From Synaphobranchus kaupii (Eukaryota > Chordata > Actinopteri > Anguilliformes > Synaphobranchidae): a DNA stretch of 64,000 nucleotides. The notes beneath the pieces are model-generated. The model was given only the letters and a program-made list of their open reading frames with translations, was not told the origin of the DNA and searched no databases. Made by a program: the position numbers and the translations under genes. Location: NCBI GenBank assembly GCA_029718625.1, contig CM056380.1, positions 39,435,608 to 39,499,607 on the forward strand. The letters run 5' to 3'. Positions 2,681 to 63,707 of this stretch are shown here, piece by piece (position 1 is the first letter of the stretch; every line of letters starts with the position of its first letter).

Positions 2681-2852
2681 GGAAGTTATAACAATTCATC
2701 ACTTTCTGGAGGCAGCTGTTCAGCATGAGATGTGTGGGAAAGTACGGCTTCAAAACTTCATTGAGAATCTCTTACAACGTATCTCACTGGCAGAGAGGCT
2801 TTTGAAATACTATCAAAGCACTTCCGGTTGGCCCAACTGCACAACTCACTCT
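2681..2852 (+). CDS. znf365: ZNF365, second coding exon (coiled coil)
   Basis: Acceptor TTAATTCCAG ends at 2680 and donor GTAAGTAA starts at 2853. The first base completes the split codon (CA|G, Gln) left by the exon at 562-1227, so the two exons are phase compatible. The 57 following codons read EVITIHHFLEAAVQHE... then GKVRLQNFIENLLQRISLAE and KYYQS, matching the human ZNF365 block HFLEAAAEKEVQGKARLQDFIENLLQRVELAE. This is the helical, probably dimerising part of the protein. The exon ends in phase 0. I could not find the basic C-terminal exon(s) of the mammalian protein downstream, so the gene model is incomplete. Confidence 0.9.
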
Positions 2853-5800
2853 GTAAGTAACCCAAAGGATACCACCTGTCTTCAACGTGCGGATGTTGGA
2901 CTGTGACACTTTTAAACCATACAGTCTGTACTAAAACCAAGGATATGGATTCTAACAACATGCATACCCTGCCTGCTTCTGTAAGCAGTATGGTCCAATG
3001 TCCCTGCCTATTGTCGCCTAAAAAAAACATTTGAATACTTCAGCAGGGCTCCCTTATTTATGATTTCTATCCTTTAACTGGGCTGTATCTTAGTATTCAA
3101 GACAGATTTGTTATTTGTATTTTCTTTCAATTGAGGGCTCATCTTAGATTTATCTCAGAATTAAGTGAATACATTTTGAATGGTGTTCACTTTTGATTGC
3201 CATTTATTCATTCGAAATGTGGTCACAAAATCACTACTGTCTGGCTTTGTGGGCTGAGTGCTGGAGTGGCACATATGTTGGCCATTAGGAAAATTAGTTT
3301 TGAAATTGAGAGGTAACTAGCGGCCAGAGTCGGCTGGGGGAGGAAGTAGAAAATGGAAGGCAATTTCCAATATTTATTTTCCACAATGTCCATCTGTTGA
3401 GGCCACTTAAGAGATAAGATCAGGAAGTGCCCGTCAGAGCTTCATTTTTAAGGGGATGAAGCAGAAACGTCCTTGTAAGCTCGTATCATTTCGTCTTCTT
3501 TCCAGCTGTCCCACACCATTGAAAATGGACCTCTGAGAATAACCAAAAGCAGGTAATTGCGGTGAAAGTTTTTATTGCAGGAATAGCAAATCTCAGAACT
3601 TGCAGATAGGTGGTTGTGATAAATTTTTTCTCCTAATTTAATTTGAAAATCCCACATTGTCATGTGATTGATATGCTTCTTTACATTCAGCATGTAATAT
3701 GCCGTGTAGATCTTCTGCCTTTTCTTATAGGTGTCATGAGCCACAGTGAAAAAATCTGACACTGTAATTACAGGTCGGCAGGCGGTCTCCTGGCAACAGA
3801 GGACCCCACGGAGAGGAGGGAAACTTCAGATCGAAAAGGGCGGTCTTTTTCAAAATCGCCCAGAGAGAGCCAGGGACACTTCCTTGACTACAAGGGCGAA
3901 GTGAAGAGTCAGTGCAGACAGTTGGCCCACTACGAGGTCTAAGTATCCTTGCCCAGAGGGGGTTGCGCCCTCCGGTTGAAATGATCCAGAATATTCTAGA
4001 ATGTAGTATAGTGCCATGTTTTTTGTTAGCCGTTTGAATGTTTGCATCCCAGGACTGCAATTGTGTCTGAAGCACTGAGTCTGTGGCAGAAGCCTCTGGC
4101 CTCCTAGTGAGGGAGAACGCCATTTTGTCTTTCAGCTTCTTTCCCTCGCGTGTACTAACGTTGGGAACCGGCGAAGACAGACCGAAGATGGCTGTCCGTA
4201 CCTAAAAAGGACCGTTGAGTTGAGAGACCTTTCTCTCCAAGTGAATTTAACATTTGGCCTTTGGGAATCTGGTTTTAATGTACACATCTCTGAATGTAAC
4301 AAAATATTTAATCGATTGTTTAACGTCATTGAATATTGGTTTTCATATTGTCAGCTGGAATAGCAACTGAAACAACTGAGTGTTATTCTCTCCAAACAGT
4401 TGTTTTTCCCAAATGGCGTTTCTCATACACAATATTAGGCAGGTTGCTTCTGTTTACAATGTGACACACTCCGTTAAAGGTGTGAATGTTTGTAAGCTTT
4501 TGTAAGAGATCAGTCTTATGGTTAAAATGACCTTAGAATGTTATGTCTTGTTTATAGTGTACTTTGTATTTTTTTGATACTGCGTATTCATAAAAATTGA
4601 ACTGTGGATAATTGGTAACTAAAGATAATTATACACTATGGTTTTCTGAATGCATTACTTTGAATAGTGCTATCATTATTATGGTATTGTTGTTTATATG
4701 CTTTTTGCTGTCCAATTCTGAATATAGAGCAATACTGTGCAATAGCATAAAAATTTTTTTTTTTTCTCTAAACTGATACTCCTCTACGTCCAACACTGTG
4801 TTTATACTGGAGAGCGAAAAATGCCAATGACTGCAAATTTTCACTCGCAACTCATACTACTGAATGTTAAGTAATCATTAGAATCTGAGACTGTGATATT
4901 ATGGTTTTGTATATGCCTCTGGTAGGTTTATTTTTGTAGATGGCCAGATACTTTTGGTCCAGCCTTTCTGAAGTATTTTTAAATCACAATATTAAATGCA
5001 TGACCTGGTGATTTGCATATTGTTGAATCTGCATGTGCTTCTTTAGATGGTAAAACCTGTATTACGATATAGTAACTTGCACTACGTACTGTGGACAAAG
5101 TATATTTTTGTGGCGAAAAATCTTGTTGGTCCAAAAGAAAAACAATGCAGGTTTCTATATAAAACAATACACCTGACAATCAGACAGATGAAACAAATGT
5201 GCTAACTTAATGTTTAGTTTTGTCAATTGAATATTGTGTAATATCTCATATAATAGGTATTGATATTATATATGATATATATTCTAAAATCAAATATTTT
5301 TTGATGTTGAGTCCTGTTGCTTTTGAATTCCATTTAAGTGGGCAATGTACAAGACTAGTCACTTGTGTATGTGTGCCTCCACTTGAACAAATGTAGCCTT
5401 TGAAACACTGTGAGAAACACAACACTGTATATTCTTACTTTAAAATTGTGTTGCTCTCCTTCAAATCATAAAGAATAAAGTTTTAAATGATTTCCTTTAG
5501 TCTCTTAGCTGTGTGTGCAACATACAATCAATGTGGCTTTAATTTGCCTTAACTACCTAACAGTGTAGTCACTCAATGTATGGAAAAATGCTCTCTTTTT
5601 CCAACCCATAATTTTAAGATCATTATTTTATGCCTGGGTTAATGGTATTTTTAAAAAGGCATACTTGTTGTGCCAGTGAAATTACCAGCTTCTGTGGAGA
5701 GAAGTGCTCGGGCGGGGTTTTGTCGCTCTGTCACCGTGCTTTGTTTGTCTCCATGCTAGGCTTTGCTCACCAGTCCACAAGAAGTGTCTTCGTCGTCGCA

Positions 5801-5948
5801 GCCACGTGCGACCGGCTTCACCTCGTGAAGCATTTAAAACCGTGGCAGACGTTCCGGAAACCTCTCTTGCCCTCCGAGTGCTTTTTTATTCCACCTCTTG
5901 TAAGGCTCCGGTTCCTGAACTAGCAGTGACATTTAAAACCCTGTTATA
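2853..5948. other. ZNF365 downstream intron/intergenic, no gene recognised
   Basis: AT-rich sequence with short open frames only and no recognisable protein similarity. A slightly GC-richer island at about 5690-5900 has open frames in two phases, but no acceptor in the right phase to continue ZNF365. An AATAAA lies near 5473. Confidence 0.6.
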
Positions 5949-5950
5949 TA

Positions 5951-6472
5951 CAGTACTGTGCAAAAGTCTTAGGCGCATGTAAAAAAAATATGTTTCTTTC
6001 AAAAATAATGACATTTCTAAATTAAGTTTCTAAATATTAAACAATTGACTATAAAAATCAGTAAACAGTAAAAAGCTAAATCAATGCTAAATCAAATCAA
6101 TATTTGGTGTGACCACCCTTTGCCTTTAAAACTGCATCAATTATCTTAGGTACACTGTTCTGCATTTTTATAAGAAATGAGCTGGTAGGTTGTTCCAAGC
6201 ATCTTGGAGAACTTGCCACAGTTCTTCTGCAGACTTTGGCTGTCTCACTTGCTTCTGTCTGTTCAGGTAATCTCAGACAGCCTCGATAATGTTGAGACCA
6301 GGGCTCTGTGGAGGCCATACCATCTGTTGCAGAACTCCTTGTTCTTCTTTTCGCTGAAGGCAGTTCAGTTAATGTTTGGAAATCTAAAATTTGCTCTCAT
6401 CTTCAAGCACACTAATGCAGAAGACAAAAAATAAACATCTAAGAAAATGCCTAAGACTTTTTCACAGTACTG
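5951..6472 (-). mobile_element. Tc1/mariner element, deleted, transposase C-terminal remnant on minus strand
   Basis: Terminal inverted repeats CAGTACTGTGCAAAAGTCTTAGGC (left) and its near complement ending at 6472 are flanked by TA at 5949-5950 and 6473-6474. On the minus strand about 6310-6100 reads as the C-terminus of a Tc1 transposase (SPGLNIIEAV, AEELWQVLQDAWNNLPAHFL) with in-frame stops. It is 522 bp, so most of the transposase is gone. Confidence 0.85.
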
Positions 6473-6857
6473 TATGCTCTTCAATTTCTCAATTAGGTTG
6501 TTTTAATGCTAAAATAACAACTTATCAATTAATGTTTACCGTTATTGATATTACACCACATTCTATCATAATATTGAAAACAAAAATAACAGTGACAAAA
6601 GATTGTGCCAAATCTTTGCCTAATATTGAAAAATGTATATTGGAGATGAACTGTAGGTCTTTTACAGTGTGCAGGGGAACCATGCCAGTCAAACGGCTCT
6701 GTTTGACGGGCAGCGCTGGCTGTTGGCTTAGTGCAGGAATAGCTGACACTTTGACACCATCCAGACGGTAAGTAAACTGGTAAAAGCAAGGTTAGGAGCT
6801 GAGGACAACACATAATCCAGTGTAGCAGTGAACAACCATTAGTTATCTATACTGTAA

Positions 6858-17040: not shown

Positions 17041-17280
17041 GTAAAATTTGATATTACAAAAGCCTATTATTTAACACATTTAAATAGTAGTTATACTAGA
17101 TATTGACTGTTGCAGATATATAACTGAGATTGTTATATAGCCTAAACGAAACAGGTGAAAGAGAAAGCTTAACCGACATATAACGTTACAGATATAATAC
17201 GGCTGTAGGCTACAGCTGCTGTGCGAGGCTTCGCGTTGAATAAGACGACCATCGTTACATATACTAGCAAGCCAACTACA

Positions 17281-18036
17281 ATGCCCAGGGACAACATGAC
17301 CTCCCTTATCCAAAAGATTGCCCGGCAAGCCTTCGTCACCTTCAGAAACTCGTCTGCAATTGGGGATAAAGTATTTTTGGAAAATCAGAGTAAACTTAAC
17401 AGCCTTCTGACGGAAATGAGGGCAGCAGATCTACAAATTGTACCGCGGAAAGTTGAAAGCTCTCAAATATCTCTACCCCACAACTCTCCGGTCACCTACA
17501 TGCATATATGCGAGACCGACGCCTTTAGCATGGGGGTTTTCTTGCTAAAGAACGGAACTTCCATCCCTCTACACGACCACCCGGGGATGAACGGAGTGTT
17601 GAAAGTTATATACGGCAAGGTGAGGATCAGCTGCTTTGACAAGGTGGATAAGCAGTCGGAAGCAGCCAACGAGACGCAGTTCAGCCCACCCCTGTTGCCT
17701 TTCCAGAAGGACGCTCTGAGGAGATCGATTCTCAGGTCGGTAGGCGAATACACAGAAGAGAGCTGCCCGTGCATTCTAACGCCCCATAAAGACAACCTTC
17801 ATCAGATCGACGCGGTGGACGGGCCGACTGCGTTTCTCGACATACTGGCACCTCCCTACGACCCAGACGACGGGAGGGACTGCCACTATTACAAAGTTCT
17901 TACTCCTGTTTCGGAAGTGGTAGACAAGAAGCCAGATTCTCAGGAGCGGAGGGAAGTGTGGCTGCTTGAGATTCCGCAACCGTCAGACTTCTGGTGCGGC
18001 GGGGAACCCTTTCCCGGGCCCGAGGTCTCCCTGTAA
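17281..18036 (+). CDS. ado: 2-aminoethanethiol (cysteamine) dioxygenase
   Basis: ADO oxidises thiols (cysteamine to hypotaurine, and N-terminal cysteine of regulatory proteins) with a mononuclear Fe(II) in a cupin fold, and serves as an oxygen-sensing enzyme. The predicted protein is 251 aa, near the human length (270). The start at 17281 is chosen because MPRDNM(T)SLIQ(K)IARQA matches the human N-terminus. The frame stays open for 20 more codons upstream but has no ATG. The three-histidine iron site is visible: H98 and H100 in LHDHPGM, H174 in NLHQIDA. C201 and Y203 in DCHYY correspond to the human C220-Y222 crosslink pair. The block LDILAPPYDPDDGRDCHYY is intact, and the C-terminus VWLLE...DFWC is conserved. 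The coding sequence is a single exon, as in mammals. It lies between ZNF365 and a convergent EGR2. The human gene has an extra Gly-rich insert that this copy lacks. Confidence 0.97.
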   Translation: MPRDNMTSLIQKIARQAFVTFRNSSAIGDKVFLENQSKLNSLLTEMRAADLQIVPRKVESSQISLPHNSPVTYMHICETDAFSMGVFLLKNGTSIPLHDHPGMNGVLKVIYGKVRISCFDKVDKQSEAANETQFSPPLLPFQKDALRRSILRSVGEYTEESCPCILTPHKDNLHQIDAVDGPTAFLDILAPPYDPDDGRDCHYYKVLTPVSEVVDKKPDSQERREVWLLEIPQPSDFWCGGEPFPGPEVSL

Positions 18037-21560: not shown

Positions 21561-22963
<1,403 letters not shown>

Positions 22964-34579: not shown

Positions 34580-35312
34580 GTGATTGGCTTTGGGAATATG
34601 TGTGGGTTCGGCATCAGTCAAAGTTATGATAGGGCGATTTCATCAATAGTCGATGACGATTTTGATGACGGTGAAGCAGATTCGCTGTCCCAATTTTGTT
34701 CACGGCTCCTCTCCTCCACTCCCCTCCCTTCTTCCACATACCTGCAGAAGACCAGGCGGTGGGGGAGGAACATCATCGGCAACCGTGCCATTGTCAATGT
34801 CCCTGGGCAGCGTGGCGGAAATGTCACCATGTGTGCAGCTATTGGTCACCATGCACAACTTGGTCTGTATAACACTCCCCGTTTGCTAACATTCCTTGAC
34901 AAACTCAAAAATATCCTCATCCCCCCCACAGGAAGAGGGACCAGAGCAGCCCACCTACGTTGTCATTTGGGATAATGTAATTTTCCACCGGGCTGCTCTG
35001 GTCCACAACTGGTTTGCTGACAACCCACGTTTTCTAGTGCTGTACCTTCCACCACATTCCCCATTTGTGAATCTGATAGAGGAATTATTTTCAACGTGGC
35101 AGTGGAGAGTGTACGACCGCAGACCCCACGAGCGTGTGGCACTACTCCAGGCAATGGAGGAGGCATGTGATGAAATCCACGCCGACGCATGTCAGGGATG
35201 GATCTGCCATGCCAGGCGTTTTTTCCCCCACTGCTTGGCCAAGGAGAACATCACAGCCGATGTGGATGAGGTCCTCTGGCCTGACCAGGATCGGAGGCGG
35301 GATGCAGAGTGA
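34580..35312 (+). pseudogene. IS630/Tc1-superfamily DDE transposase, frameshifted
   Basis: Two overlapping open frames (34580-34975, then 34896-35312) together cover a DDE_3-type catalytic domain. The first carries GRNIIGNRAIVNVPGQRGGN and MCAAIGHHA. The second carries VVIWDNVIFH (second catalytic Asp region) and YLPPHSPFVNLIEELFSTWQ (third acidic residue, E of NLIEE). The frames part at a run of seven C at 34921-34927, so one base has been lost or gained there. The N-terminal helix-turn-helix DNA-binding part was not found upstream. Inverted ends were not identified. Confidence 0.8.
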
Positions 35313-35962
35313 TCTGTTTCATTGCATTTTGCAATATTGGTTTTTCAGTCAGTTCAGTCAGCTGAACAAACTCAAAAATATTGCAGTAACAAATAAATAT
35401 TTCCTTTGTATCTGTGCACTGATTTATCATTACATCCCCAGAAAGACAGTCTAAACATTTTCTTTGTAGTGTTTCTCATTGTACTTATCAGAGTTTTGCT
35501 AAAATAGGTAACATTTGTGTTGCATCAACTATAGTAAATGCTATTTTGGGACAAAAAAACATACACTTTACCAAAACGAGAAAAAGGAAACTATTTCCAC
35601 ACAATTTTATGCATTTGAATATGTAACATGGCCTCATGAAGCCAAAACATACATGAACACTATTTTGATGGTAGTGTTTTAAATTTATCACACCAGTGTT
35701 TAATTGATGCTCTGTAAGACATAAACATATAATAGCTGTGTGTATTGTTTTGGTGGAAAGAATCAGTTTTGAGAAGAGAGAACATGGTTTTGAGTGCTGT
35801 GTTTCATTTTGCAAGAGATTTGTGGAGTTTTGACAAAGTGGGTAACTCTTTTCAGTTTTGTGTTTAGAGTTTTGAGAAATTGAGCCACAGTTTCTGGGAA
35901 TGTGGTTAAACGTTTGGGAAAAACTGTAACATGGACATTGGCTGCTTTGACCATGCTGGTCA
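35313..35962. other. Region downstream of the transposase
   Basis: Probably still part of the transposon. TTTTGAGAA and GTTTTGAGTG-type words recur between 35765 and 35880. No coding segment seen. Confidence 0.4.
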
Positions 35963-35966
35963 TTAA

Positions 35967-36931
35967 AGGGTAAGTTCGCTATTTTGGACCTTGGACCCTA
36001 TTTGCGGTCCATCTTCCATGAACCTGACCCATGAAGTCCATTTTTTCGCTGATCGGTCCAGTATTGAGTTCGCTACAGATTTCCTGTAGGCTCTCACTGG
36101 GCTACAATAGAAGTCAACGGGGCAATTAGAAATGTTCGATAAATGTGCTTTCATGTACAATAAATGAGACGGGAAGCTCAGGGTGTATTGTTACCGGTCT
36201 CAGTATGCTCTCCTGTGAAATGTATCTCAATCCGAACATTTTTACGTGCTTGGCATGGCTTGGAAGTAAGCATTTCTCTGTTGCTTGTTTTCGCTGCTCC
36301 CGCGGAGTACTATGTGTCGGGGGTAGGGGAGCGGGAAGGTGTGCCGGCCGTTTACGAAACTATCTAGTTGAGCAGTCTGCGTTTGTTTACCTGCAGCAAC
36401 GTAGGCTACAATTTCCACAAAAAAACTTGGATGATGGATGACTATAATGATTACGAAGACGAAGAATTCGATTTTGACTGACGTTACTCGCTACAGATTT
36501 GAGCCAGAATACACGGACACGGAACTACAAGAGATGGATGATAAGAGAGCAAGAGAAGAGAGAGAGGCTGAAGTTGCGCAGGTAATGTTATCCGAAGTCA
36601 GTGCGAGGTAGTGCGGTCGGAGAAATAGTTCTGTTTCAAATGGAACTGTTGTTTCAACGTTCGGTTTGCGTTTGCGATAGCCTACATTTCACAGGAGAGC
36701 ATACTGAGACCGTAAGAATACACACTGAGCTATAAAAGCACATTTATCGTTGTTTTTCCATAACATTTCTAATTGCCCCGTTGACTTCTATTGTAGCCCA
36801 GTGAGAGCCTACAGGAAATCTGTACCGAACTCAATACTGGACCGATCAGCGAAAAAATTGACTTCATGGGTCAGGTTCATGGAAGACGGACCGCAAATAG
36901 GGTCCAAGGTCCAAAATAGCGAACTTACCCT
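35967..36931. mobile_element. TTAA-flanked foldback element with internal exon-like acidic frame
   Basis: AGGGTAAGTTCGC at the left and GCGAACTTACCCT at the right end are terminal inverted repeats that extend for about 250 bp (shared TGGACCTTGGACCCTATTTG, CTGATCGGTCCAGTATTGAG and CAGTATGCTCTCCTGTGAAATGTA, all in opposite orientation). TTAA lies outside both ends (35963-35966, 36932-36935), as for piggyBac. The unique centre holds an acidic short frame at 36431-36581 that ends at a GTAATG donor. Confidence 0.85.
36431..36581 (+). pseudogene. Exon-like acidic reading frame inside the TTAA element
   Basis: ATG at 36431 opens MMDDYNDYEDEEFDFD, then a stop. From 36480, one base out of register, the frame continues DVTRYRFEPEYTDTELQEMD and a charged helix to Gln at 36581, directly followed by GTAATG. 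It looks like the first coding exon of a protein starting with an acidic segment, broken by a one-base shift. The RYxFEPEYT phrase reminds me of multicopy predicted fish proteins, but I cannot name the family with confidence. Confidence 0.4.
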
Positions 36932-36944
36932 TTAAGACCTAGAC

Positions 36945-42538: not shown

Positions 42539-42877
42539 GGAAGCGTAATGCATTCACTTGAGAAAGAAAATTCTGCTGTTTTTCTGAATTAACGAGATTA
42601 GCTAGCTAGCTAGAATAGCTTCTTCTACTTCTGTGGTAAGCTAGCAAGCTACCTAGCGCAGCCCGTAGTTAGGCCTGTCATGTGAGGTAGCTAGCTAGCT
42701 TAGCACAGAAGTAGAAGAAGCTATTCTAGCTAGCCAGCTAATCTCGTTAATTCAGAAAAACAGAGCAGAATTTTTTTTCCCCATGAAAACTTTTCTCATA
42801 ATTCTCAGATAATTATGTAGTTAATTCAGAAAAACAGGGCAAAATGTTTTTTTTCAAGTGAATGCATAACGCTTCCA
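42539..42877. repeat. Imperfect foldback element rich in GCTAGCTA
   Basis: GGAAGCGTAATGCATTCACTT at the left is complementary to AAGTGAATGCATAACGCTTCC at the right. The inner arms share CTGAATTAACGAGATTAGCT and AATAGCTTCTTCTACTTCTG in opposite orientation. The right arm carries a partial internal duplication (two GTTAATTCAGAAAAACAG blocks). Confidence 0.8.
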
Positions 42878-43033
42878 TGTATGAAACAGCATTATTTTTC
42901 TATTAACCTATGTAACTTGAAAACGAGTCCACCTTAAACTGCAGCACGTATCCGTCAACAATGTATGAAAAGTAGTCTCTCTCGCTGCTAGTTTAATTTT
43001 ATGTTAGACTCACACACCAAGGGCTCAATAGAA

Positions 43034-43040
43034 TAACTGG
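43034..43040. repeat. Left target duplication of the giant foldback element
   Basis: TAACTGG; identical to 49970-49976. Including the preceding A (43033) and the A at 49969 makes it 8 bp. Confidence 0.75.
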
Positions 43041-43159
43041 TATGGGGGGCCAACAGTGCCAAAACTCTGTCGTCTGCGAGTGCGACTGCGACTGCGACTG
43101 CGAATGCAATTGCCTTATACTGTGCGCTTTAATTGGTCACAACATCTCACTCGCAGGTT

Positions 43160-43366
43160 TACTCGTGTCACTCATACGCACTTGCACTCGCAGTCGCATT
43201 CGCACTCGCATTCGCACTGGCACTCGCAGTCGCATTCGCACTGGCACTCGCAGTCGCATTCGCACTGGCATTCGCATTCGCAGTCGCACTGGCACTCGCA
43301 GTCGCATTCGCACTGGCACTCGCAGTCGCATTCGCACTGGCACTCGCACTCGCAGTCGCACTTTTA
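43160..43366. repeat. GCGANT hexamer tract, left outer
   Basis: Tandem hexamers CACTCG/CATTCG/CAGTCG with interspersed CACTGG. It lies near the outer end of the left arm; its counterpart is at 49620-49838 and differs in length and order. Confidence 0.95.
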
Positions 43367-44805
43367 TGAGTGTAGTTAGTAGCCTAGGCTACTAATTGTT
43401 AGCTTGCTGATATAGCTAGCATGCCAGACGGTTAGGTAACGTTAAGAAGATCAGTATAGGCTACTTTGCTGAATAAAATACAGTAGACTATATGGTTAGG
43501 CTACTGAATCAGTTCATTAACCTTAGCTAAATAGTTCGCAAGTTTGATCTTTGATCAGCTCGAGTAGCGTAGGCTACTATAGCCTATCTAGCTATCTGAT
43601 CAGCTAAATTAGGCTAAATATAGGCCTATTATTTTTTATTAAAAGACGAAGATTTTGTTTTCCTGTCAGGTTGAACGTATTATGGATTTCCTTGTAGTGT
43701 GTCAACAATGTCACATTCGAAGAATTTGACGTGGTTTATGAAAAGCTTGCATGAGTTCACCATTTAGCTACTGAAATTATAATGCTGGTTAATGCTTTTA
43801 TGGCTCCCGTGCCGAAATTTGACTGCCTGTCAGAATTTGACAGACCCTCGCGTGCACGCGCGCCCACTCTGCATTATTCCTTTCTTTGCGACTGTGTTCT
43901 TCTCCTTTTGCAATTTCCGACTAATATCTTCCTTCTTTCGGTGCATGATCAAGCCATTCTGTGTCACTGTCCGTACAGATAGCCTACTCTTTTTCTCATT
44001 TGAAATGCTCGATTTTCGTGGAGTTCTCACATAGACCTAATTTAAGCAGCATACTTTGCAAGAATCAGCCTAGCCTACGTTAAAAGCGGATAAAATCCAT
44101 GTAAATTAGGCTATCGTTTTTTTTTTGTTTTTTTTTTAAACGGCGTTAACGTAGGCTAGTGGAACATAAAAGAATCGCAGTTTGACAGCTAGTCTACAAG
44201 ATCTGGGAATAGCCTACGATTCTTCGTTAAGTTCAATGTCGACATAATGTCCAGGACAGCATTATGCTGTGGTGACACATCTGGTCCTCTACTGTAGCCT
44301 ACACCATCAAAATGTTTTGTTCATACAGTGAGCACCATAATTCATTGGACAGTGACACATTTTTTGTTATTTTGGTTTTATAGCCTACTCTCGCACTTTG
44401 AGTTTGAAAGGATACAATGACAATGAGTTTGAAGTGCAGACTGTCAGCTGAGGGTTTTTTCATCCATATCGGATGAACCGTTTATAAATTATAGAACTTT
44501 TTGTAGGCCTACATAGTCCCCCCCATTTTCGGGCATCAAAAAATATTGGTCAGTTTAACATAATGTAGAATAAAGTAATCATTTTGTCAATAATTCCTGA
44601 TGCCTGTGACCCAACAATATCAAAAGACAAAAACGGATATGGAGAGGGCTTCGGCGTTCTTGGTTTTGTGTTTAAGTTGTAGGTGCTCTTTGGATTAGAT
44701 CCGGGGTAGGATCCGTGATAATTAGAAAAAAATAGTAATCCAAGGCAGCTCTACAAAATTAAAAAGCCTTTATTAAATGGCTCACATTATTTAGAATATT
44801 AAAAA

Positions 44806-44844
44806 ACCAACATGTTTCGGCCTACATAGGGCCTTCATCAGGGT
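44806..44844 (-). ncRNA. Hammerhead-ribozyme-like motif (minus copy)
   Basis: Mirror image of the motif at 45101-45139 in the other half of the palindrome, with identical core bases. Confidence 0.5.
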
Positions 44845-45100
44845 ATCTAGAACAAAGACCGAACACTGACTAATATGGGGAGTCCTGAGCTCTGGGAGAG
44901 TCTAATTACAATGATAAACAGCTGGTGCTGAAAGAATGGAACAATATATAACTTTACCAGGAGGGGTCAGTCGACTGACCCCTCCTGGTAAAGTTATATA
45001 TTGTTCCATTCTTTCAGCACCAGCTGTTTATCATTGTAATTAGACTCTCCCAGAGCTCAGGACTCTCCATATTAGTCAGTGTTCGGTCTTTGTTCTAGAT

Positions 45101-45139
45101 ACCCTGATGAAGGCCCTATGTAGGCCGAAACATGTTGGT
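45101..45139 (+). ncRNA. Hammerhead-ribozyme-like motif (plus copy)
   Basis: The core CTGATGA (45104-45110) is followed by one unpaired A, then stem II GGCC (45112-45115) and GGCC (45123-45126) with loop CTATGTA. GAA (45127-45129) comes next, then a minimal stem III (AC with GT around AT) and the putative cleavage position after T45136. Stem I would pair ACC (45101-45103) with GGT (45137-45139). Penelope-like elements are known to carry minimal hammerheads of this kind, often active as dimers. The extra A and the two-base stem III are deviations, so activity is uncertain. Confidence 0.55.
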
Positions 45140-46653
45140 TTTTTAATATTCTAAATAATGTGAGCCATTTAATAAAGGCTTTTTAATTTTGTAGAGCTGC
45201 CTTGGATTACTATTTTTTTTTCTAAATATCAAAAGACTCTTGATATCTTATGTTCTGGTATTCCTACAAGCGATACTAGGCTATCACCTCTCTGCATTTG
45301 AACGGGTCTCTATGGGAATTGGGGGGTTGGACTAGATTTAGCTGTAAATTACACTGGAACAGTATGGTTGGCTAAATGGCTCTAAGTCATCAAGGGTCTG
45401 ACGTATCAAACAAGCCTCAAACCATCTGCTGCCAGATATGCAGTAGCCTAGTTATGGATGGATAACTTGAAGGGTTGTTTCTCCGGGCAAATATTCCTAA
45501 AACAAACTGCGATTGTTTTATGTTTCACTAGCCTACGTTAATGCAGTTTTAAAAATAAACTATAGCCTACTTTACATGCATTTTATCTGCTTTAAACGTA
45601 AGGCCTAGGCTACTGATTCTTGCAAATTATGCTGCTTAAATTATGCCGGAACGCCACGAAAATCGAGCATTTCAAATGAGAAAATAATAGGCTATCTGTA
45701 CGGACAGTGACACAAAATGGTCCAATCATCCACCGAAAGAAGGCAGATATTAGTCGGAAATCGCGAAAGGAGAACGAGCAGAGTCACAAAGAAAGTAGCT
45801 AATATTGCAGAGTGGGCGCGCGTGCACGCGGGGGGTTGTCAAATTCTGACAGGCAGTCAGATTTCGGCACGGGAGCCATAAAAGCAGTAGCAGAATGCTT
45901 GACTTCCAGTAATGGTGAACTCGTGAAAGCTTTTAATAGACCACGTCAAATTCTTCGAATGTGACATTACTACAAGGTAATCCATAAGACGTTCAACCTG
46001 ACAGTAAAAATAAATAAATAATAATCGTCTTTTGGCAAATGCGGACGAGCGAATGGTTGGATCAGTTCCCTTACAAATGTTCTCATCTGCTCCATTAAAC
46101 TCAAATTGCATATTAATTAAAGTTAATATATTTATCTAAGCAACAGAAATAGGCTAATCATTTTGGGCTGATCATAGGCTAGTACCCGAGCTGATCAAAG
46201 ATCACGCGAACTTGCAAACTATTTAGCTGAGGTTAGTGAAATTATTGAAGTAGCCCAGCGAACATATACTGTATTTTATTCAGCAAAGTAGGCTAGCCTA
46301 TATTGATCTTCGTAACGTTACCTAGCCGTCTGGCATGCTAACTATCAGCAAGCTAACAACTAGTAGGCTACTAACTACACTCAGAAATGTTACTCTGAAA
46401 CATGTAGCCTAGGTTCATGTTTTCAGGACGTTACATTTTAAATCCTCCATTTCTGCCAATTGCGATATTTCTCTGTATCGTCCTTCATTAAATAGGCTCG
46501 CCTAGGCTACTCTACTTCTAGCCTACTATATGGCCGCGTTTGACATTTCTCTGTTGTTCTTGGGATTGTATCGCCACCCTGTGGATTTAAATGCTAACTG
46601 CAGTGGTATAATCATGAGAGTTAGAATACGAGCGCTATATCAGTGGTATAATC

Positions 46654-46922
46654 ATGAGAGCGCAACTGCGAGTGCGAATGCGAGTGCGAATGCGAATGCG
46701 AGTGCGAGTGCGAATGCGAGTGCGAATGCAATTGCCTTATACTGTGCGCTTTAACTCGCAACTGCGAGTGCCAGTGCAAGTGCTACGAGTAAACCTGCGA
46801 GTGAGATGTTGTGACCAATTAAAGCGCACAGTATAAGGCAATTGCATTCGCACTCGCACTCGCATTCGCACTCGCATTCGCACTCGCACTCGCACTCGCA
46901 TTCGCACTCGCAGTTGCGCTCT
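46654..46922. repeat. Central hexamer tracts and spacer of the giant foldback
   Basis: GCGAGT/GCGAAT hexamers (46660-46727) and their inverted counterpart (46845-46915) flank the 65-bp central spacer (46754-46818). A 20-bp direct repeat, CAGTGGTATAATCATGAGAG, occurs twice just outside each tract. Confidence 0.9.
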
Positions 46923-49619
46923 CATGATTATACCACTGATATAGCGCTCGTATTCTAACTCTCATGATTATACCACTGCAGTTAGCATTTAAATCCACAG
47001 GGTGGCGATACAATCCCAAGAACAACAGAGAAATGTCAAACGCGGCCATATAGTAGGCTAGAAGTAGAGTAGCCTAGGCGAGCCTATTTAATGAAGGACG
47101 ATACAGAGAAATATCGCAATTGGCAGAAATGGAGGATTTAAAATGTAACGTCCTGAAAACATGAACCTAGGCTACATGTTTCAGAGTAATAGCACCTCTT
47201 GGCCTTTACATTTTCTGAGTGTAGTTAGTAGCCTACTAGTTGTTAGCTTGCTGATAGTTAGCATGCCAGACGGCTAGGTAACGTTACGAAGATCAATATA
47301 GGCTAGCCTACTTTGCTGAATAAAATACATGTTCGCTGGGCTACTTGAATAATTTCACTAACCTCAGCTAAATAGTTTGCAATTTCGCGTGATCTTTGAT
47401 CAGCTCGGGTAGGCCTACTAGCCTGTGATCAGCCCAAAATGATTAGCCTATTTCTGTTGCTTAGATAAATATATTAACTTTAATTAATATGCAATTTGAG
47501 TTTAATGGAGCAGATGAGAACATTTGTAAGGGAACTGATCCAACCATTCGCTCGTCCGCATTTGCCAAAAGACGATTATTATTTATTTATTTTTACTGTC
47601 AGGTTGAACGTCTTATGGATTACCTTGTAGTAAAGTCACATTCGAAGAATTTGACGTGGTCTATTAAAAGCTTTCACGAGTTCACCATTACTGGAAGTCA
47701 AGCATTCTGCTACTGCTTTTATGGCTCCCGTGCCGAAATCTGACTGCCTGTCAGAATTTGACAACCCCCCGCGTGCACGCGCGCCCACTCTGCAATATTA
47801 GCTACTTTCTTTGTGACTCTGCTCGTTCTCCTTTCGCGATTTCCGACTAATATCTGCCTTCTTTCGGTGGATGATTGGACCATTTTGTGTCACTGTCCGT
47901 ACAGATAGCCTACTATTTTCTCATTTGAAATGCTCGATTTTCGTGGCGTTCCGGCATAATTTAAGCAGCATAATTTGCAAGAATCAGTAGCCTAGGCCTT
48001 ACGTTTAAAGCAGATAAAATGCATGTAAAGTAGGCTATAGTTTATTTTTAAAACTGCATTAACGTAGGCTAGTGAAACATAAAACAATCGCAGTTTGTTT
48101 TAGGAATATTTGCCCGGAGAAACAACCCTTCAAGTTATCCATCCATAACTAGGCTACTGCATATCTGGCAGCAGATGTTTTGAGGCTTGTTTGATAGCCT
48201 ACGTCAGACCCTTGATGACTTAGAGCCATTTAGCCAACCATACTGTTCCAGTGTAATTTACAGCTAAATCTAGTCCAACCCCCCAATTCCCATAGAGACC
48301 CGTTCAAATGCAGAGAGGTGATAGCCTAGTATCGCTTGTAGGAATACCAGAACATAAGATATCAAGAGTCTTTTGATATTGTTGGGTCACAGGCATCAGG
48401 AATTATTGACAAAATGATTACTTTATTCTACATTATGTTAAACTGACCAATATTTTTTGATGCTGCCCGAAAATGGGGGGGACTATGTAGGCCTACAAAA
48501 AGTTCTATAATTTATAAACGGTTCATCCGATATGGATGAAAAAACCCTCAGCTGACAGTCTGCACTTCAAACTCATTGTCATTGTATCCTTTCAAACTCA
48601 AAGTGCGAGAGTAGGCTATAGAACCAAAATAACAAAAAATGTGTCACTGTCCAATGAATTATGGTGCTCACTGTATGAACAAAACATTTTGAGGGTGTAG
48701 GCTACAGTAGAGGACCAGATGTGTCACCACAGCATAATGCTGTCCTGGACATTATGTCTACATTGAACTTAACGAAGAATCGTAGGCTATTCCCAGATCT
48801 TGTAGACTAGCTGTCAAACTGCGATTCTTTTATGTTCCACTAGCCTACGTTAACGCCGTTTAAAAAAAAAAAAAACCGATAGCCTAATTTACATGGATTT
48901 TATCCGCTTTTAACGTAGGCTAGGCTGATTCTTGCAAAGTATGCTGCTTAAATTAGGTCTATGTCAGAACTCCACGAAAATCGAGCATTTCAAATGAGAA
49001 AAAGAGTAGGCTATCTGTACGGACAGTGACACATAATGGCTTGATCATGCACCGAAAGAAGGAAGATATTAGTCGGAAATTGCGAAAGGAGAAGAACACA
49101 GTCGCAAAGAAAGGAATAATGCAGAGTGGGCGCGCGTGCACGCGAGGGTCTGTCAAATTCTGACAGGCAGTCAAATTTCTGCACGGGAGCCATAAAAGCA
49201 TTAACCAGCATTATAATTTCAGTAGCTAAATGGTGAACTCATGCAAGCTTTTCATAAACCACGTCAAATTCTTCGAATGTGACATTGTTGACACACTACA
49301 AGGAAATCCATAATACGTTCAACCTGACAGGAAAACAAAATCTTCGTCTTTTAATAAAAAATAATAGGCCTATATTTAGCCTAATTTAGCTGATCAGATA
49401 GCTAGATAGGCTATAGTAGCCTACGCTACTCGAGCTGATCAAAGATCAAACTTGCGAACTATTTAGCTAAGGTTAATGAACTGATTCAGTAGCCTAACCA
49501 TATAGTCTACTGTATTTTATTCAGCAAAGTAGCCTATACTGATCTTCTTAACGTTACCTAACCGTCTGGCATGCTAGCTAACAATTAGTAGCCTAGGCTA
49601 CTAACTACACTCATAAAAG

Positions 49620-49838
49620 TGCGAATGCGAGTGCCAGTGCGAATGCGACTGCGAGTGCCAGTGCGAATGCGACTGCGAGTGCGACTGCGAATGCGACTGC
49701 GAGTGCCAGTGCGAATGCGACTGCGAGTGCGACTGCGAGTGCCAGTGCGAATGCGACTGCGAGTGCCAGTGCGAATGCGACTGCGAGTGCGAATGCGACT
49801 GCGAGTGCGAATGCGAGTGCCAGTGCAAGTGCTAGTGC
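49620..49838. repeat. GCGANT hexamer tract, right outer
   Basis: Counterpart of the tract at 43160-43366. It has more units and a different order of GAGTGC, GACTGC, GAATGC and CAGTGC variants than the left tract. Confidence 0.95.
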
Positions 49839-49976
49839 GTATGAGTGACACGAGTAAACCTGCGAGTGAGATGTTGTGACCAATTAAAGCGCACAGTATA
49901 AGGCAATTGCATTCGCAGTCGCAGTCGCACTCGCAGACGACAGAGTTTTGGCACTGTTGGCCCCCCATATAACTGG

Positions 49977-50797
49977 ACTCTGCTTTCATATCAGAAATCA
50001 GATGAGGTGGAGGTGGTGCCAAGAGAAGCCATATGTATGTGAATGTACATTGAGAATGTATGTCTCATATTCTTTATTTCTGTATTGTTTGCAGTTTTAC
50101 AATCACCAGTAAAGACCATAATCTTCCTTCGCCTTGGATCCTTATTGGAGCTGTTAGCTGTTTTTAAAAAAAAATTAAAGCCCCCCTTACTACAACAGAT
50201 AAACCGGAACTATGAATTAGGGAATAACAGATCAGATGTATAAAACAGCTGTTTTAACTAGTTAGTAATGTAGAATTTTCTCTTGTAACTTTGTGTTGTT
50301 ATGTGATGTGTCAGCTAACATTAGTCATTGAACATAAAATTCAATAGGCTATCCTAGTCGTTGTGCTAGCTAGCTAGCTACCTCAATCATTCGAAATGCA
50401 AGCCAGGTGGCAAACAAACTTAATGCAAGCTAATGGTAGCTGACATTATTTAGCTAGATAGCATTTCCACAGCTAGATAGCAAAAAAAGAAAAAAAGGTA
50501 GCTAGGTAGCTAGCTATAGTGAGTTTCTCAACCTAAAATTTTGCCCTTGACTATACATGCAAATACTTGTACTTGAAATGTACTGGCAGTTTTGCATACT
50601 TCCGGGTAGGAGACGAGTAGAGGCGAGGAGTGGAGGAAAGGTGGTGAGGAGTGAAGAATATTGGAACGCAGCCACACTGTTCATGAGAGAGCAAGAGCAG
50701 AATGATAGAGGAAGAAATAGCCCACATTCTGGGATAACTTTCTGTGTGACAGGTTGTCTTCAGAAACATAATGCATAGAAAAGGAGTAGAGATCATG
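49977..50797. other. Last TRP intron, 5' part
   Basis: Includes TAGCTAGCTAGC-rich stretches near 50370 and 50500. No coding segment recognised. Confidence 0.5.
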
Positions 50798-52544: not shown

Positions 52545-53930
<1,386 letters not shown>

Positions 53931-55041: not shown

Positions 55042-56492
55042 CACAGTGTCTCAAATTGAGGATCACTCTCCTCCTCCATCCGCCTCTGTTGAGGAGGAGG
55101 AAGCATCATTTCTGTGGGACAACAAGGGGCAGGAGGATGAAGACGAAGGACGGGGAGGGCGAGGATGGTACCGCGAGGGAGGGAGATCGCTACGAGTATG
55201 GGGCCGGCTTCGCTATATGTTTGAGCCACCCCCTGTTGCTGCTGCTGCCTGAGCTGCAGAAAATGCAGTCCACACAGAGAGAATCTTGATGTTTCTGAAT
55301 GGTATGATAACAGTCATATGTAACATCAAAAGCTGTAATAAATATTTGCCTAGAATCCAGAATCCTGTTTTGTTTTTCTATTAACGTTATGTTACCATTA
55401 CCGCAATAACAGGATAGGTGTGTGCAAATTGCTGGACAGCAACAACTACCGTTTAGCTGTTAACAAATCATATCCATCATTTTAAACTAAAATCTGTGGA
55501 CTATCAGTAGATATTAGTATTGACTGTCAAAGCTAGCATGACCCGGCAAAGCAAAGGGGGTTGAGATCTGCAGGGGAATCGAAAAACGGCACAACACCGG
55601 CGGTCAAATCCCACCTTGGCGGCCAAATCCTCCGTCTTTCTTACAAGAGTGGTCAAATTAACTGGTGAATTAAACATAACGTTATACGGAAATGTTAATT
55701 AGTTACTTACTTTCAAAGGGAGTGAGGGACCATTGTAGTGGATGGTGGGAATGGCCCACTCAGTGAGGGAGTAGAAGCTCCCAAATCCCATTTTAACAGC
55801 AATTGCATTCATGAATAAATAATTCTCGAAATGCAAATTACAGATCCTTGAGCTTGAGCAGATTGCAGCCTACTTCATGTGGCCAAATTCTAGCCATTTT
55901 TTCCGTAGCCATGCGTTTGTGGGGAAACTAAATAGTGTGTGAGGACTCTCACCCAAACAAGTACTTTCGTCCCATTTTGTTCACAGTTCGCACTCGCACT
56001 GACAGTTGCTAACTTGCTACTGTGAGCAACCTAAATTACTCTAAGCTAGCTGTCACTCACATTGACGTTGAGGACAAGTTGAAAATCAGCAATGTAATTG
56101 GAGGAAAAACTTTTTTCCACTGTCTGCCAGTACAGGTACGCGCCACCAAAACTTCACACAACCGTTTACAGGAAGAAGTGAGGGAAATATTTAGCCGTGA
56201 AAATATCAACTTTAAATTAGAAAAAAATATGTTTTGGTCTACATCACGTCCTTGAAGTTATTAAACTATAGATAACCATTTCATCACTTAAGAGGTAAAT
56301 GTTCATTGTGTGGGGCCTTTAAAATATGTGACTTTGTAAATTTTGTCCTCATATACAGAATATGAAAGGAACAGCACAGTAGCAAAAACACCCCAAGGCA
56401 AAATTTGTCTAATTGTTACCATTCTACACTCTTGCATTGCTACTATAATATTTTCAATGAAATTATATTACAACAACAACTATACCGTGATA
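55042..56492. other. Interior of the hAT-like element, unassigned
   Basis: An open frame at 55007-55252 encodes an acidic stretch (SASVEEEEASFLWDNKGQED) that could be a remnant of the element's own transposase, but no catalytic motif is visible. The rest shows short frames only. Confidence 0.35.
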
Positions 56493-57303
56493 TACACCAA
56501 TCAGCCACAACATTAAAACCACTGACAGGTGAAGTGAATAACATTGATTATCTCGTTATTTTGGTTCTGTACTTTAGAACTTTGAGTTTGGAAGGATACA
56601 ATGACAATGAAGTTGAAGTGCAGACTGTCAGCTTTAATTTAAGGGTATTTTCATCTATATCGGATGAACCATTTAGAAATTATAGAACTTTTTGTACATA
56701 GTTTCCCCCATTTTTGGGCATCAAAAAATATTGGACAGTTTAACATAATGTAGAATAAAGTAATCATTTTAAATATTTGGTCGCATATCCTTTGCATGCC
56801 ATGACTTCCTGATGTCTGTGACCCAACAACATCAAAACACTCTTGATATTTTATTTTCTGGTACTCTTAGCGTCTCTGCATTTGAATGGATTTGTTTTCT
56901 ATGGGAATCCATCCATATCTACTGCATATCTGGCAGCAGAGTGATGGTTTAAGGCTTGTTTGATATGTCAGACCCTTGATGACAGAGCAATTTAGACAAC
57001 CATGTGTTCCATACTGTTCCAGTGTAATTTACAGCTAAATCTAGTCCCACCCCCCAATTCCCATAAAGATCTATTCAAATGCACAGAGGTTATAGTATCG
57101 CTTGTAGGAGTAGAGGAAAATAAGATATCAAGAGTCTTTTGATATTGTTGGGTCACAGAAAACAGGGAGTCATGGCATGCAAAGGATATTGTCATTGTAT
57201 CCTTTCAAACTCAAAGTGCTAGAGTACAGAACCAAAATAACGAGATAATCAATGTTATTCACTTCACCTGTCAGTGGTGTTAATGTTGTGGCTGATCGGT
57301 GTA
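56493..57303. mobile_element. Tc1/mariner-type foldback MITE
   Basis: TACACCAATCAGCCACAACATTA at the left and its near complement at the right form inverted ends beginning with the TA target. The arms extend inward for more than 100 bp (GATTATCTCGTTATTTTGGT, AGGATACAATGACAATG). The interior (GGATGAACCATTTAGAAATT...) is related to the spacer inside the giant foldback (44330-44615). Confidence 0.85.
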
Positions 57304-57435
57304 TATCGTTACTATCCAAAATTTATTTAATACCGTGATATATATCGTTACTATCCCACATTTAATGAATACCTTGATATGAATTTAACGCTATATCGCC
57401 CACCCCTACCTCCTATGCTAAGGGATGACAGTTAC

Positions 57436-57750: not shown

Positions 57751-57997
57751 TGCTAGTGCACCCTCAAATGCACATTGAGACATCTAAAATAAAAACACAT
57801 AAGCTCTCACACATGCATACCTAGAAAAAAAAACACACCAAGACGTGCACACGCAAATGTGCACACCGTCATGCTCACAGAACCTGAAACAAACACACGC
57901 TTCACACACGTCACCCGACACCACACACGCACACAGGTGCTCGTACGCGGAACTCCCCGACAAGAGAAGAGCACAGGCCGACACACTCTTGGTGCGC
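57536..57997 (-). other. TRP intron with (AC)n tracts
   Basis: Several CA-rich stretches, the longest (AC)n at 57710-57748. Open frames across it are repeat artefacts. Confidence 0.8.
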
Positions 57998-57999
57998 AC

Positions 58000-58204
58000 C
58001 TCTGGAAGGTGTCGGACAGGAGGGCGATCATCAGGTTGACGCACAGGAGGGCCGACAGCGCCAGAAAGGTGCCACAGAGCAGGTAGGCCATGGTGCGATC
58101 CACCTTCACCATTTTGTCAAACTCGTATTCATCTACCAGCGTGAGGCGGTAGAGGCTGTACATAAGCTTGGGGATGGTCTCCATGCTCGGCACCTCTGGA
58201 TTAT
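58000..58204 (-). CDS. TRP-family cation channel, pore and S6 exon
   Basis: Minus-strand acceptor CTGTTCCAG before 58204 and donor GTGCGC after 58000. The codon GAT is split across the previous intron (G|AT), then 67 residues and AG. IPKLMYSLYRLTLVDEYEFD is the pore helix and selectivity-filter region; MAYLLCGTFLALSALLCVNL and MIALLSDTFQR form S6 with the conserved NL.IAL..DT.Q ending of TRP channels. By recall it is unlike TRPC, TRPM and TRPML; I cannot place it securely among TRPA-, TRPN- or TRPV-like groups. Confidence 0.88.
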
Positions 58205-58655
58205 CTGGAACAGGGCACAACCGCCATTTTGAGACCACAATACAGCTGAGCATCCACACACCACTCCCTGCTTCTGCTGTTTCCAAAAAAAACAATAAAC
58301 ATGATCGCAGTTTATCTGCACACATCTGCTGAGAGTCTGTTCAGACTTCTTCAACAGTCAGATCCCTGAATAAAGTGCGCTGCTGTACTTTTCATAATCA
58401 CCATTCTTGAAACTCCTGAAAATTTGGTTAAGCCCAAATCTTGAAATTCATCTGTGTGTGTTTCCGGTCTAGCTGTGCTTTTCTTCTGGAGGATACCCCA
58501 TAATTTTACAGGTATTCAGCTTGGGGTCAGGGAGCAAACTTTTTTAAATTCCTGTATTGCTTATCTGTACTTCATCACCTGTAGTTGCTATTGTCCTGCA
58601 TTTGTATCACATACTTGTAATATACTGACAATATTATTTCAAGTTCTTATCTTAA

Positions 58656-62185: not shown

Positions 62186-63156
62186 CTATTCAGACATGGG
62201 AGCGGTCCGGCAACTAATATGCAGGATCATTAGATGAGCACATAAACACATGCACGCACGCGTATACACACACGCAACATGCACACACACATACACACAC
62301 AAGCACGCACACACAAAGGATGAGTTTAACATATCACGAGTTTCATATGAGTACCAATATGGATGAGATATATATTCCCTTTCATATCCCAATTAGAATA
62401 GGCCTCAGAAGTCGTGTCATTTCCTCCAGATTTGTTAGCATTTTTGAGATCAAGAAAATAGACGGACTACGGGAGAAATGAATGGGGTTTCCCTAACTCC
62501 TTCAAAATAATATATGACATTTGGACTTGTTTGTTTGTATATGAAAAAAAAAGTTTTTCAGTCATTTTTTATAATCTAAAAAAATTTGGTGTAATTTTAA
62601 AAAGCAAATTGCTAGCAGCTAAGTGGTTAATACACTCGTAGTGACCCCTGACCCGCTGCACAATTTCAACATCACACACAGGACTGTAGCTATTAATTCA
62701 AGCATTTCAAGCTACCATTCACATGTAAATCGTTTGCTGTTACAAGTGTAATTAATTATACATTTTTCTATTTTGTATATAACGATGGATTAAATTGATA
62801 CGGTATGTTAGGCCCACTGTCATCCTAAATGAGCAAAAACAATAAAAACTCATTCAATTTGCGCAGTAAGCCGAACTGCTCCGGATGTCATATTCATTGC
62901 AACTTTCTGCTATAACGTAACCTAACTTGGAAAACGTAGGCTACGACATAAAAAGCAGTCTGTAAACATTACCGGTATGGTGTCATTTTCTTTCTGTTAG
63001 CTAGCAGTTGTAATGTCTACCGTTAGCAGATCAAGCGTTTCAAAGCTAGCCAATAATGGTAAGAGTCAGTTAACAATCTTTCTAATGACAGCCTACATGA
63101 AGAAGGAGTTTAGCAGAAACATTGGCAGAATCCGCTTTGTTTGAATTCGTACAGGC
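62186..63156. other. Intron of the TRP gene, no exon recognised
   Basis: A CA-rich patch at 62245-62315; otherwise AT-rich. I found no further TRP exon with a matching phase. Confidence 0.45.
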
Positions 63157-63651
63157 TACGTGCTAGAAGTGTCATTTTCAGACTGTTTTAGCTGCCTCAT
63201 AGAAGTGAATGGAGAGCGACAAATACCCTATTCTGGATTATCACCCCAGGGGAGCACAGAGCAACTAATGAACATATTCCACCATCATTTAGACTATCAT
63301 GGCCAGGAAACTACACAACCCAAAGTTCTACCAAAGTTCAGTTGTGCTTTAAAAATAATTGGACAACCAAAGAACACCCAATCAGAGCCCTGCAAACCTG
63401 TTCAAAATAAACCCAACATATACAAATGGGCTCCAAATTGCGTGGCTGAATTTAAAGCACAACCGAACTTTGGTAGAACTTTGGGTTGTGTAATTACCTG
63501 GCCATGATGAGTCCAAATAGTGGCGAAATATGTTCGTTAGTTGCTCTGTGCTCCCCTGGGGTGATAATTCATTATAATAGGGTATTTGTCGTTCTCCATT
63601 CATTTCTATGGGGCAGCTAAAATGGTCTCAAAATTACACTTCTAGCACGTA
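63157..63651. mobile_element. Foldback MITE, 495 bp
   Basis: TACGTGCTAGAAGTGT and its exact complement ACACTTCTAGCACGTA form the ends. The inner arms share GAATGGAGAGCGACAAATAC, GGGGAGCACAGAGCAACTAA and CAAAGTTCTACCAAAGTTC in opposite orientation. The arms cover almost the whole element, leaving a short unique centre. Confidence 0.9.
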
Positions 63652-63707
63652 TATGACCGCGAAAGAAGTGGATTCTGTCAATACAAACAATAACCAGTCC
63701 TCATACT

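Follow-up and report, generated by a model that had tools for sequence, protein, structure and literature searches.

A 64,000-nucleotide stretch of the genome of the anguilliform eel Synaphobranchus kaupii (hereafter the window; C5:39435608-39499607 of the 1.503 Gb host assembly) carries a near-perfect palindrome at positions 43041-49969, and the question raised by this locus is whether such a structure formed where it now lies or arrived there as one unit, as a first-pass annotation of the window had proposed. We conclude that it very likely belongs to a foldback family that makes 6-bp target-site duplications (TSDs), and that it is a young mobile palindrome without coding capacity, which formed, moved as a whole, and has arms that exchange sequence. 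The host being an eel, the attribution of this family to fish was right.

The palindrome and its parts are laid out as follows, in window coordinates:

43034..43040, + strand: TSD, left copy, TAACTGG, 7 bp, against 6 bp in the rest of the family
43041..46754, + strand: left palindrome arm
43041..43074, + strand: left terminal inverted repeat (TIR), not found at the inner ends
43177..43362, + strand: subterminal tandem repeats, 6/12-bp, CGCACT type, left outer
43363..44184, + strand: segment A, left outer
44366..45463, + strand: segment X, split by a 609-bp stretch; second occurrence at 56555-57241
44616..45224, no strand: 609-bp extra stretch, left arm only; direct repeat of 13 bp, AATATCAAAAGAC, recurring at 45225-45237; contains a 247+247-bp palindrome
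45503..46390, - strand: left inner segment A', which forms the older inverted pair with A
46390..46655, + strand: segment Z, left
46755..46818, no strand: 64-bp asymmetric spacer; its junction, 46746-46777, is found eight times in the genome
46819..49969, - strand: right palindrome arm, without the insertion
49618..49839, - strand: subterminal tandem repeats, 6/12-bp, right outer
49936..49969, - strand: right TIR
49970..49976, + strand: TSD, right copy, TAACTGG

The earlier description of two arms around a spacer of about 65 bp, each arm holding an older inverted pair, with matching ends and TAACTGG on both sides, agrees with these measurements. The ends are exact TIRs, TATGGGGGGCC and GGCCCCCCATA, and TAACTGG abuts both directly. 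Nine boundary offsets were tried at the element and a 7-bp duplication was obtained with the symmetric one only, the chance level for a 7-bp match being 43 in 400,000 random position pairs. Over the 300 bp outside the ends there is no mirroring (25% ungapped identity). A perfect 40-bp stem adjoins the spacer, and the arms differ by 15 substitutions in 2,659 aligned body sites, with the tandem repeats, the insertion and the centre excluded. The left arm runs in the order TIR, tandem 1, core, tandem 2, A, X, A', Z and inner tandem, with Z confined to the inner halves of the palindrome. We confirmed that A and A' form an inverted pair older than the palindrome and present within each arm: over the aligning parts, they differ at 87 of 699 sites in the left arm and at 93 of 689 in the right. 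The 34-bp TIR is absent at both inner ends, and the inner junction carries no terminal sequence. Only three open reading frames (ORFs) of at least 100 amino acids lie in the element, all of them repeat-coded, in line with the first-pass annotation, which had seen no transposase there.

Evidence for movement of the whole palindrome comes from the junction between left arm and spacer. We searched the entire assembly with the 32-mer 46746-46777, allowing up to two mismatches, and found it at eight places on seven contigs (seven exact matches, and one mismatch in L011), with none in the control. All eight lie inside palindromes, namely the window copy, L009-L013, L015 and L022. The double layout with both ends and duplications was found in eight copies (the window copy and L009, L010, L011, L012, L013, L014 and L015), seven of which have the same asymmetric spacer and junction, the spacer measuring 64 bp, or 58 bp in L013; the eighth, L014, has lost the inner part of one arm and does not carry the junction. 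The junction palindromes are 6-8 kb in length. Among the seven complete junction copies the spacer lies in the + orientation in five and in the - orientation in two, and it is also - in L022, which was read at one end. Each of the seven has unrelated flanks and its own TSD, of 6 bp in six copies and 7 bp in the window. A shared asymmetric scar, together with separate duplications, means that the palindrome had a single origin and was afterwards transposed as one unit, the latter as had been proposed. If one of the seven is the founder, the whole palindrome has reached at least six further sites.

The ends and duplications of the wider family were sampled by searching the genome with the first 1,210 bp of the element, which returned 596 candidates, of which 40 were scored. 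We examined 27 stretches around scored hits and parts of three longer copies (on C3, C10 and C6), together with two more copies at their ends and middles only. The exact 24-bp end occurs 134 times in the genome, 67 times per strand and not at all in the control; positions are listed for 100 of the 134. Both ends with a direct duplication were found in 12 of the 27 stretches, in the window and in the C6 copy, which makes 14 copies and 13 independent insertions, L016 and L017 being one duplicated locus with common flanks and counted once. The flanks of the insertions (300 bp per side, blastn, E 1e-3) gave no match to one another except between those two. Twelve of the 13 independent insertions have exact 6-bp duplications, so the 7 bp that had been given for the duplication holds for the window copy and not for the family. 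In the other 15, the part examined contained a single end or neither. Copies sharing the same ends, an expectation tested in part here, were seen in 16 cases, in which both ends fall at the same terminal sequence (which the search for ends itself used); in L019, L020 and L021 one arm ends 15-116 bp before the terminus. Single copies, which the first-pass annotation had suggested collecting, do exist as two-ended elements of 3.1-3.6 kb (L016/L017, L023 and L024). Among the ends listed, C2:67002451-67034769 has four family ends that all point the same way and are spaced exactly 10,765 bp apart, so that a copy here forms part of a tandem array.

The difference in length between the two window arms is mainly due to the 609 extra bp at 44616-45224 of the left arm, which are bordered by the direct repeat and have an uninterrupted empty site in the right arm. 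The 247+247-bp palindrome inside this stretch is spacer-free with one mismatched position, about 90 bp of unpaired sequence precede it, and the whole resembles an inverted-dimer retro-insertion. The insertion is younger than the palindrome, or was never copied to the other arm. A permissive Rfam scan of 42900-50100 gave six matches, all under the gathering scores and read as chance, four on the palindrome within the insertion and two on the left tandem repeats.

Palindromic doubles are a recurrent form in the family; that of the window is a member of one young set. Substantial parts of the half-unit run forward and then backward in L019, L020, L021, L025, L029 and L037, and L027, L031 and L034 have one half, the centre and a short start only of the second half. 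The junction 32-mer of the window palindrome was not found in these other doubles in the genome-wide search. Where arms could be compared, their divergence runs from 0.06% (L021, 1,659 sites) to 3.2% (L037, 380 sites). Some family members carry coding sequence of other kinds. L014, a rearranged palindrome copy, holds at 2378-6056 a nested insertion of about 3.7 kb with a DDE_1 transposase ORF. In L037 an ORF of 397 amino acids (5434-6624) lies between A and A'. Its 71 homologues include one that bears the name Tesmin/TSO1-like CXC domain, and the ORF had no match in a Pfam search; the other ORFs of this copy are by eye like those of long interspersed nuclear elements (LINEs). ORFs in L036, on C3, resemble by eye a long-terminal-repeat retrotransposon polyprotein. 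We treated the ORFs of L036, L014 and L037 as later insertions and not as the family transposase, Pfam having been run for L014 and the CXC ORF only.

A longer relative on C6 bears on where the half-unit comes from. It spans 16,373 bp, has the same ends and the duplication CACTCC, and is laid out as TIR, A, X, A', part of Z, a tandem-core-tandem block, an ORF of 617 amino acids, and further sequence leading to X', A and TIR. The window half-unit has its counterpart in the leftmost 3.2 kb of this relative (80-93% identity, with gaps), which makes the palindrome a left end joined to a left end. At the right end of the relative A and X were matched, and A' and Z were not; we therefore dropped the idea of palindromes as plain deletion derivatives of a symmetric parent. 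Nor is the proposal of two elements fused head to head supported as it was put, since the inner ends lack the 34-bp TIR and each half matches just those 3.2 kb of a longer form. By eye, the inner end of Z repeats, in inverted orientation, what immediately precedes the C6 ORF exon. The module in which the junction sits was an inverted tandem repeat to begin with.

Whether this C6 relative stands near the autonomous parent, its ORF being part of the family transposase, is a tentative idea that we regard as possible but doubtful. It has the family ends and a 6-bp duplication, its left end of A, X, A', Z and module lies directly before the ORF, and homologues of 1,115 and 1,122 amino acids exist. 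However, homology to other gene copies begins at residue 33 and the upstream exons do not lie in front; the ORF has no Pfam or NCBIfam family, and the AlphaFold model P0081 is too weak to use (mean predicted local distance difference test score 58, predicted template modelling score 0.37). Neither the ORF nor homologues of up to 1,122 amino acids reach Pfam cut-offs, the nearest being a sturgeon homologue (Agenet, 25.9 bits vs 27). A DDE-like motif order was suspected by eye in the alignment. Four other copies of the ORF exist at 98% (C5:45590876, C7:28145758, C3:40750799 and C12:861742). Three of the four have no exact end within 20 kb among the ends listed, the C12 copy being outside the listed places; the C5 gene copy matches C6 across the exon and 3' flank and does not match the window element. 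The search for an autonomous relative has thus produced an ORF-bearing 16.4-kb copy between family ends, with an ORF that is not proven to be a transposase.

Exchange between the arms of one copy has to be weighed against the alternative that the arms are alike through youth alone, with no exchange between them. Over the body, the seven complete junction copies diverge by 0.23-0.56% within copies and 0.34-0.66% between copies, the pattern of a star-like burst, and the similarity of the two ranges is what youth alone would give. Among the 80 variant alleles counted in the 14 arms of these copies (L022 excluded), three occur in more than one arm but always on one side of the spacer, and two are shared by arms of both sides. 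Seven are private to both arms of one copy (four in L013, two in L012 and one in L009), and such changes have no explanation in simple descent but have one in hairpin-templated copying or gene conversion. A tree of 30 arms places both arms of one copy as sisters in eight of the 12 copies that have both, with ultrafast bootstrap values of 100 (L021), 99 (L013), 96 (L022), 92 (L018), 90 (L019), 88 (L029), 85 (L009) and 72 (L012). The arms of L021 differ at one of 1,659 sites with the nearest other copy compared at 0.65%, and those of L022 at one of 1,470 with the nearest relative at 0.33%. In view of the doubly private variants, the sister arms and the distance of L021 from other copies (at least 0.65% among those compared), we hold youth alone to be unlikely. 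The pattern is one of sequence exchange between the arms of a copy, presumably by one of the two mechanisms named above; most variants being confined to a single arm, the exchange is partial.

The palindrome could also have been made in place, a broken resident element having had its left half copied backwards and re-annealed to the surviving right end. The window duplication taken alone is insufficient to decide, because an inverted copy made in this way would keep it; non-coding two-TIR copies of Galileo with recruited and extended inverted repeats offer a parallel (PMC3573991). Two loci of the family itself have mirrored flanks. The identical junction at eight loci, seven of them with their own duplications and unrelated flanks, is decisive here: independent events would not produce the same scar. 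We accordingly regard an origin in place as very improbable for the window copy, and possible still for one founder among the eight junction copies. An assembly artefact, in which reads folding back at an unrecognised adapter or a hairpin would have been assembled as a palindrome that does not exist, is harder still to credit and in our judgement exceedingly unlikely. Near-identical arms around a short spacer are the typical pattern of such reads, and the window element has both. Its flanks are nevertheless unmirrored, 15 sites distinguish its arms, its junction is present at eight loci spread over seven contigs, and the 609-bp insertion with an empty site opposite argues against an assembly mirror. 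A number of observations weigh against a palindrome that moved whole and whose arms exchange sequence. All the palindromes, including the eight junction loci, are known here from assembled sequence alone, and the 7 bp of the window duplication depart from the family size. Seven convergent end pairs, among the ends listed, fall outside the loci read at both ends (C1:71838028, C1:73921191, C3:19908439, C3:63729479, C5:9980639, C10:54129768 and C11:17340306). The loci C5:275048-281755 and C9:3469928-3475707 are two-ended with mirrored flanks and no duplication; the mirrored part extends at least 120 bp, is the same flank at both and looks LINE-like by eye, and near the middle of both copies X, and not the junction, was seen in the stretches read. 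In-place inverted duplication thus also occurs in the family. As to exchange, 68 of the 80 variant alleles are found in a single arm only, the arms are not sisters in the window copy, L010, L011 and L015, and just three of the eight sister pairs reach a bootstrap of 95. Finally, the transposase of the family is not proven, and the gene copies on C5, C7 and C3 without nearby ends suggest that the C6 gene may have been captured.

For the mobile palindrome that we favour, we propose the following course. A larger element would have had a left end built as TIR, A, X, A', Z and a hairpin module. A template switch or fold-back at the inverted tandem repeats of the module may have copied this left end back on itself, which would yield a palindrome with two left ends and the inner terminal repeat lost. 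A transposase acting in trans, probably by cut and paste, would recognise the two identical outer ends and move the whole palindrome. Afterwards, the arms may exchange sequence by gene conversion or by hairpin-templated copying, which would help to keep them alike; the window copy subsequently took the 609-bp insertion in its left arm. Template switching in yeast produces inverted junctions where interrupted inverted repeats are present beforehand, in most cases of 40-80 bp in total (PMC10766183), and the spacer here, of 64 bp, likewise lies inside a pre-existing inverted tandem repeat. The yeast junctions, however, belong to chromosomal amplicons and not to mobile elements, and the match in size is merely approximate. 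A bolder version, in our view improbable as a whole, would have the family driven by an unclassified multi-exon protein, whose last exon is in the 16.4-kb copy and which would represent a transposase group outside Pfam making 6-bp duplications; left ends would repeatedly fold into mobile palindromes, and the arms would be mutually rewritten, so that the palindrome stays near-perfect while jumping.

Long palindromes are expected to be fragile and prone to loss. Here, one such structure, about 6.4 kb long and with its arms separated by 64 bp, formed a single time, spread within a vertebrate genome to six or more additional sites, and keeps its arms alike. Each copy carries an internal clock in its two arms, a polarity mark in its spacer and a birth mark in its TSD, so that palindrome birth, whole-unit transposition and arm conversion become separable and datable. 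The survival of long palindromes and the likeness of foldback arms are thereby directly testable.

Elsewhere in the window, X recurs at 56555-57241, there inverted on itself. This lies within an inverted-repeat element at 56489-57307, whose outer 120 bp are 96% complementary and whose inside consists of two inverted X copies, so X belongs to another repeat family too. Further self-complementary or inverted-repeat stretches, perhaps resembling miniature inverted-repeat transposable elements (MITEs), lie at 42562-42779 (86% identity), 63121-63682 (77%) and 35958-36939 (89%), and remnants of DDE_3 (Tc1/mariner-type) transposases at 34890-35309 and 53351-53905. The window also contains ADO (PCO_ADO) at 17209-18036, an EGR-family zinc-finger gene at 21564-22643, an ion-channel fragment at 57810-58340 and a UnaL2 LINE tail at 1759-1812. 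That tail apart, a scan of the window gave no Rfam match at gathering score, and no tRNA.

Among known transposable elements, several groups can be set aside. The duplication is not the TA of Tc1/mariner and pogo. Dada elements lack TIRs and insert into small RNA genes (PMC3706591); the present element has exact TIRs, and there is no RNA gene at its window insertion site, the single site checked. An exact 20-mer of the end was absent from the viral_contigs and genome_contigs collections, and blastn against plasmids found nothing, but those collections are not fish DNA and the absence is no evidence of rarity. Searches of an open-access library (subscription journals and Repbase being outside their scope) brought up no paper that describes the element by title or abstract, and none that joins Synaphobranchus kaupii, genome and transposable element.

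The 6-bp duplications recall the hAT6 group, known here only from the title of a Repbase report cited in PMC12730594, and were found in 12 of the 13 independent insertions; the copies examined yielded no hAT transposase. Closer in host are gadMor-hAT-1784 and gadMor-hAT-8043 of Atlantic cod, which are palindromic, tandemly repeated, non-coding MITEs with nested inverted repeats of about 1.3-5.8 kb (PMC12368964). They too are fish elements without coding capacity and with nested inverted repeats, a likeness of description only; they are assigned to hAT and tied to inversion breakpoints, and the parts of that account consulted describe no repeated palindrome junction with separate duplications, the term TSD not occurring in its text (PMC12368964).

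Galileo of Drosophila mojavensis has long, internally repetitive TIRs, non-coding two-TIR copies, and inner sequence recruited in inverted form (PMC3573991). The eel family shares the long inverted repeats with subrepeats and the non-coding two-ended copies. However, Galileo TIRs reach about 1.26 kb and its duplications are of 7 bp (PMC3573991), whereas the arms described here measure 3.1-3.7 kb, each is itself an inverted pair, and the family duplication is 6 bp. The analogy that the first-pass annotation had drawn from the duplication size is therefore not supported, all 12 other independent insertions with a duplication having 6 bp, while those of the Galileo/P superfamily are of 7-8 bp (PMC3573991, PMC10983969). 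We found no link of the eel family to the P superfamily: its ends, TATGGGGGGCCAACAGTGCC, show no likeness to CATACCTGTCAAC of zebrafish Pdre2 (PMC10983969), and as to a THAP-type transposase, one ORF-bearing copy was read end to end, its ORF and homologues staying under Pfam cut-offs.

The Mutator-group foldbacks Muta1 and Tm1, and likewise Tetris, have composite inverted repeats, and many or all of their copies are non-autonomous (PMC5225508, PMC3169594, PMC4079207), with tandem units of about 220 bp in Tetris, 12 bp in Muta1 and 13-15 bp in Tm1. The inverted repeats of the eel family are composite as well and contain tandem repeats, but these foldbacks make duplications of 8-10 bp (PMC5225508, PMC3169594) in place of 6 bp. 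Foldback architecture, with long inverted arms that contain subrepeats around a non-coding middle, was recognised at the outset, and direct duplications are present at the repeat ends of the 13 independent insertions, the two loci with mirrored flanks standing apart. Structurally, then, this is a foldback element, and what is new in it is a mobile double with partly co-evolving arms.

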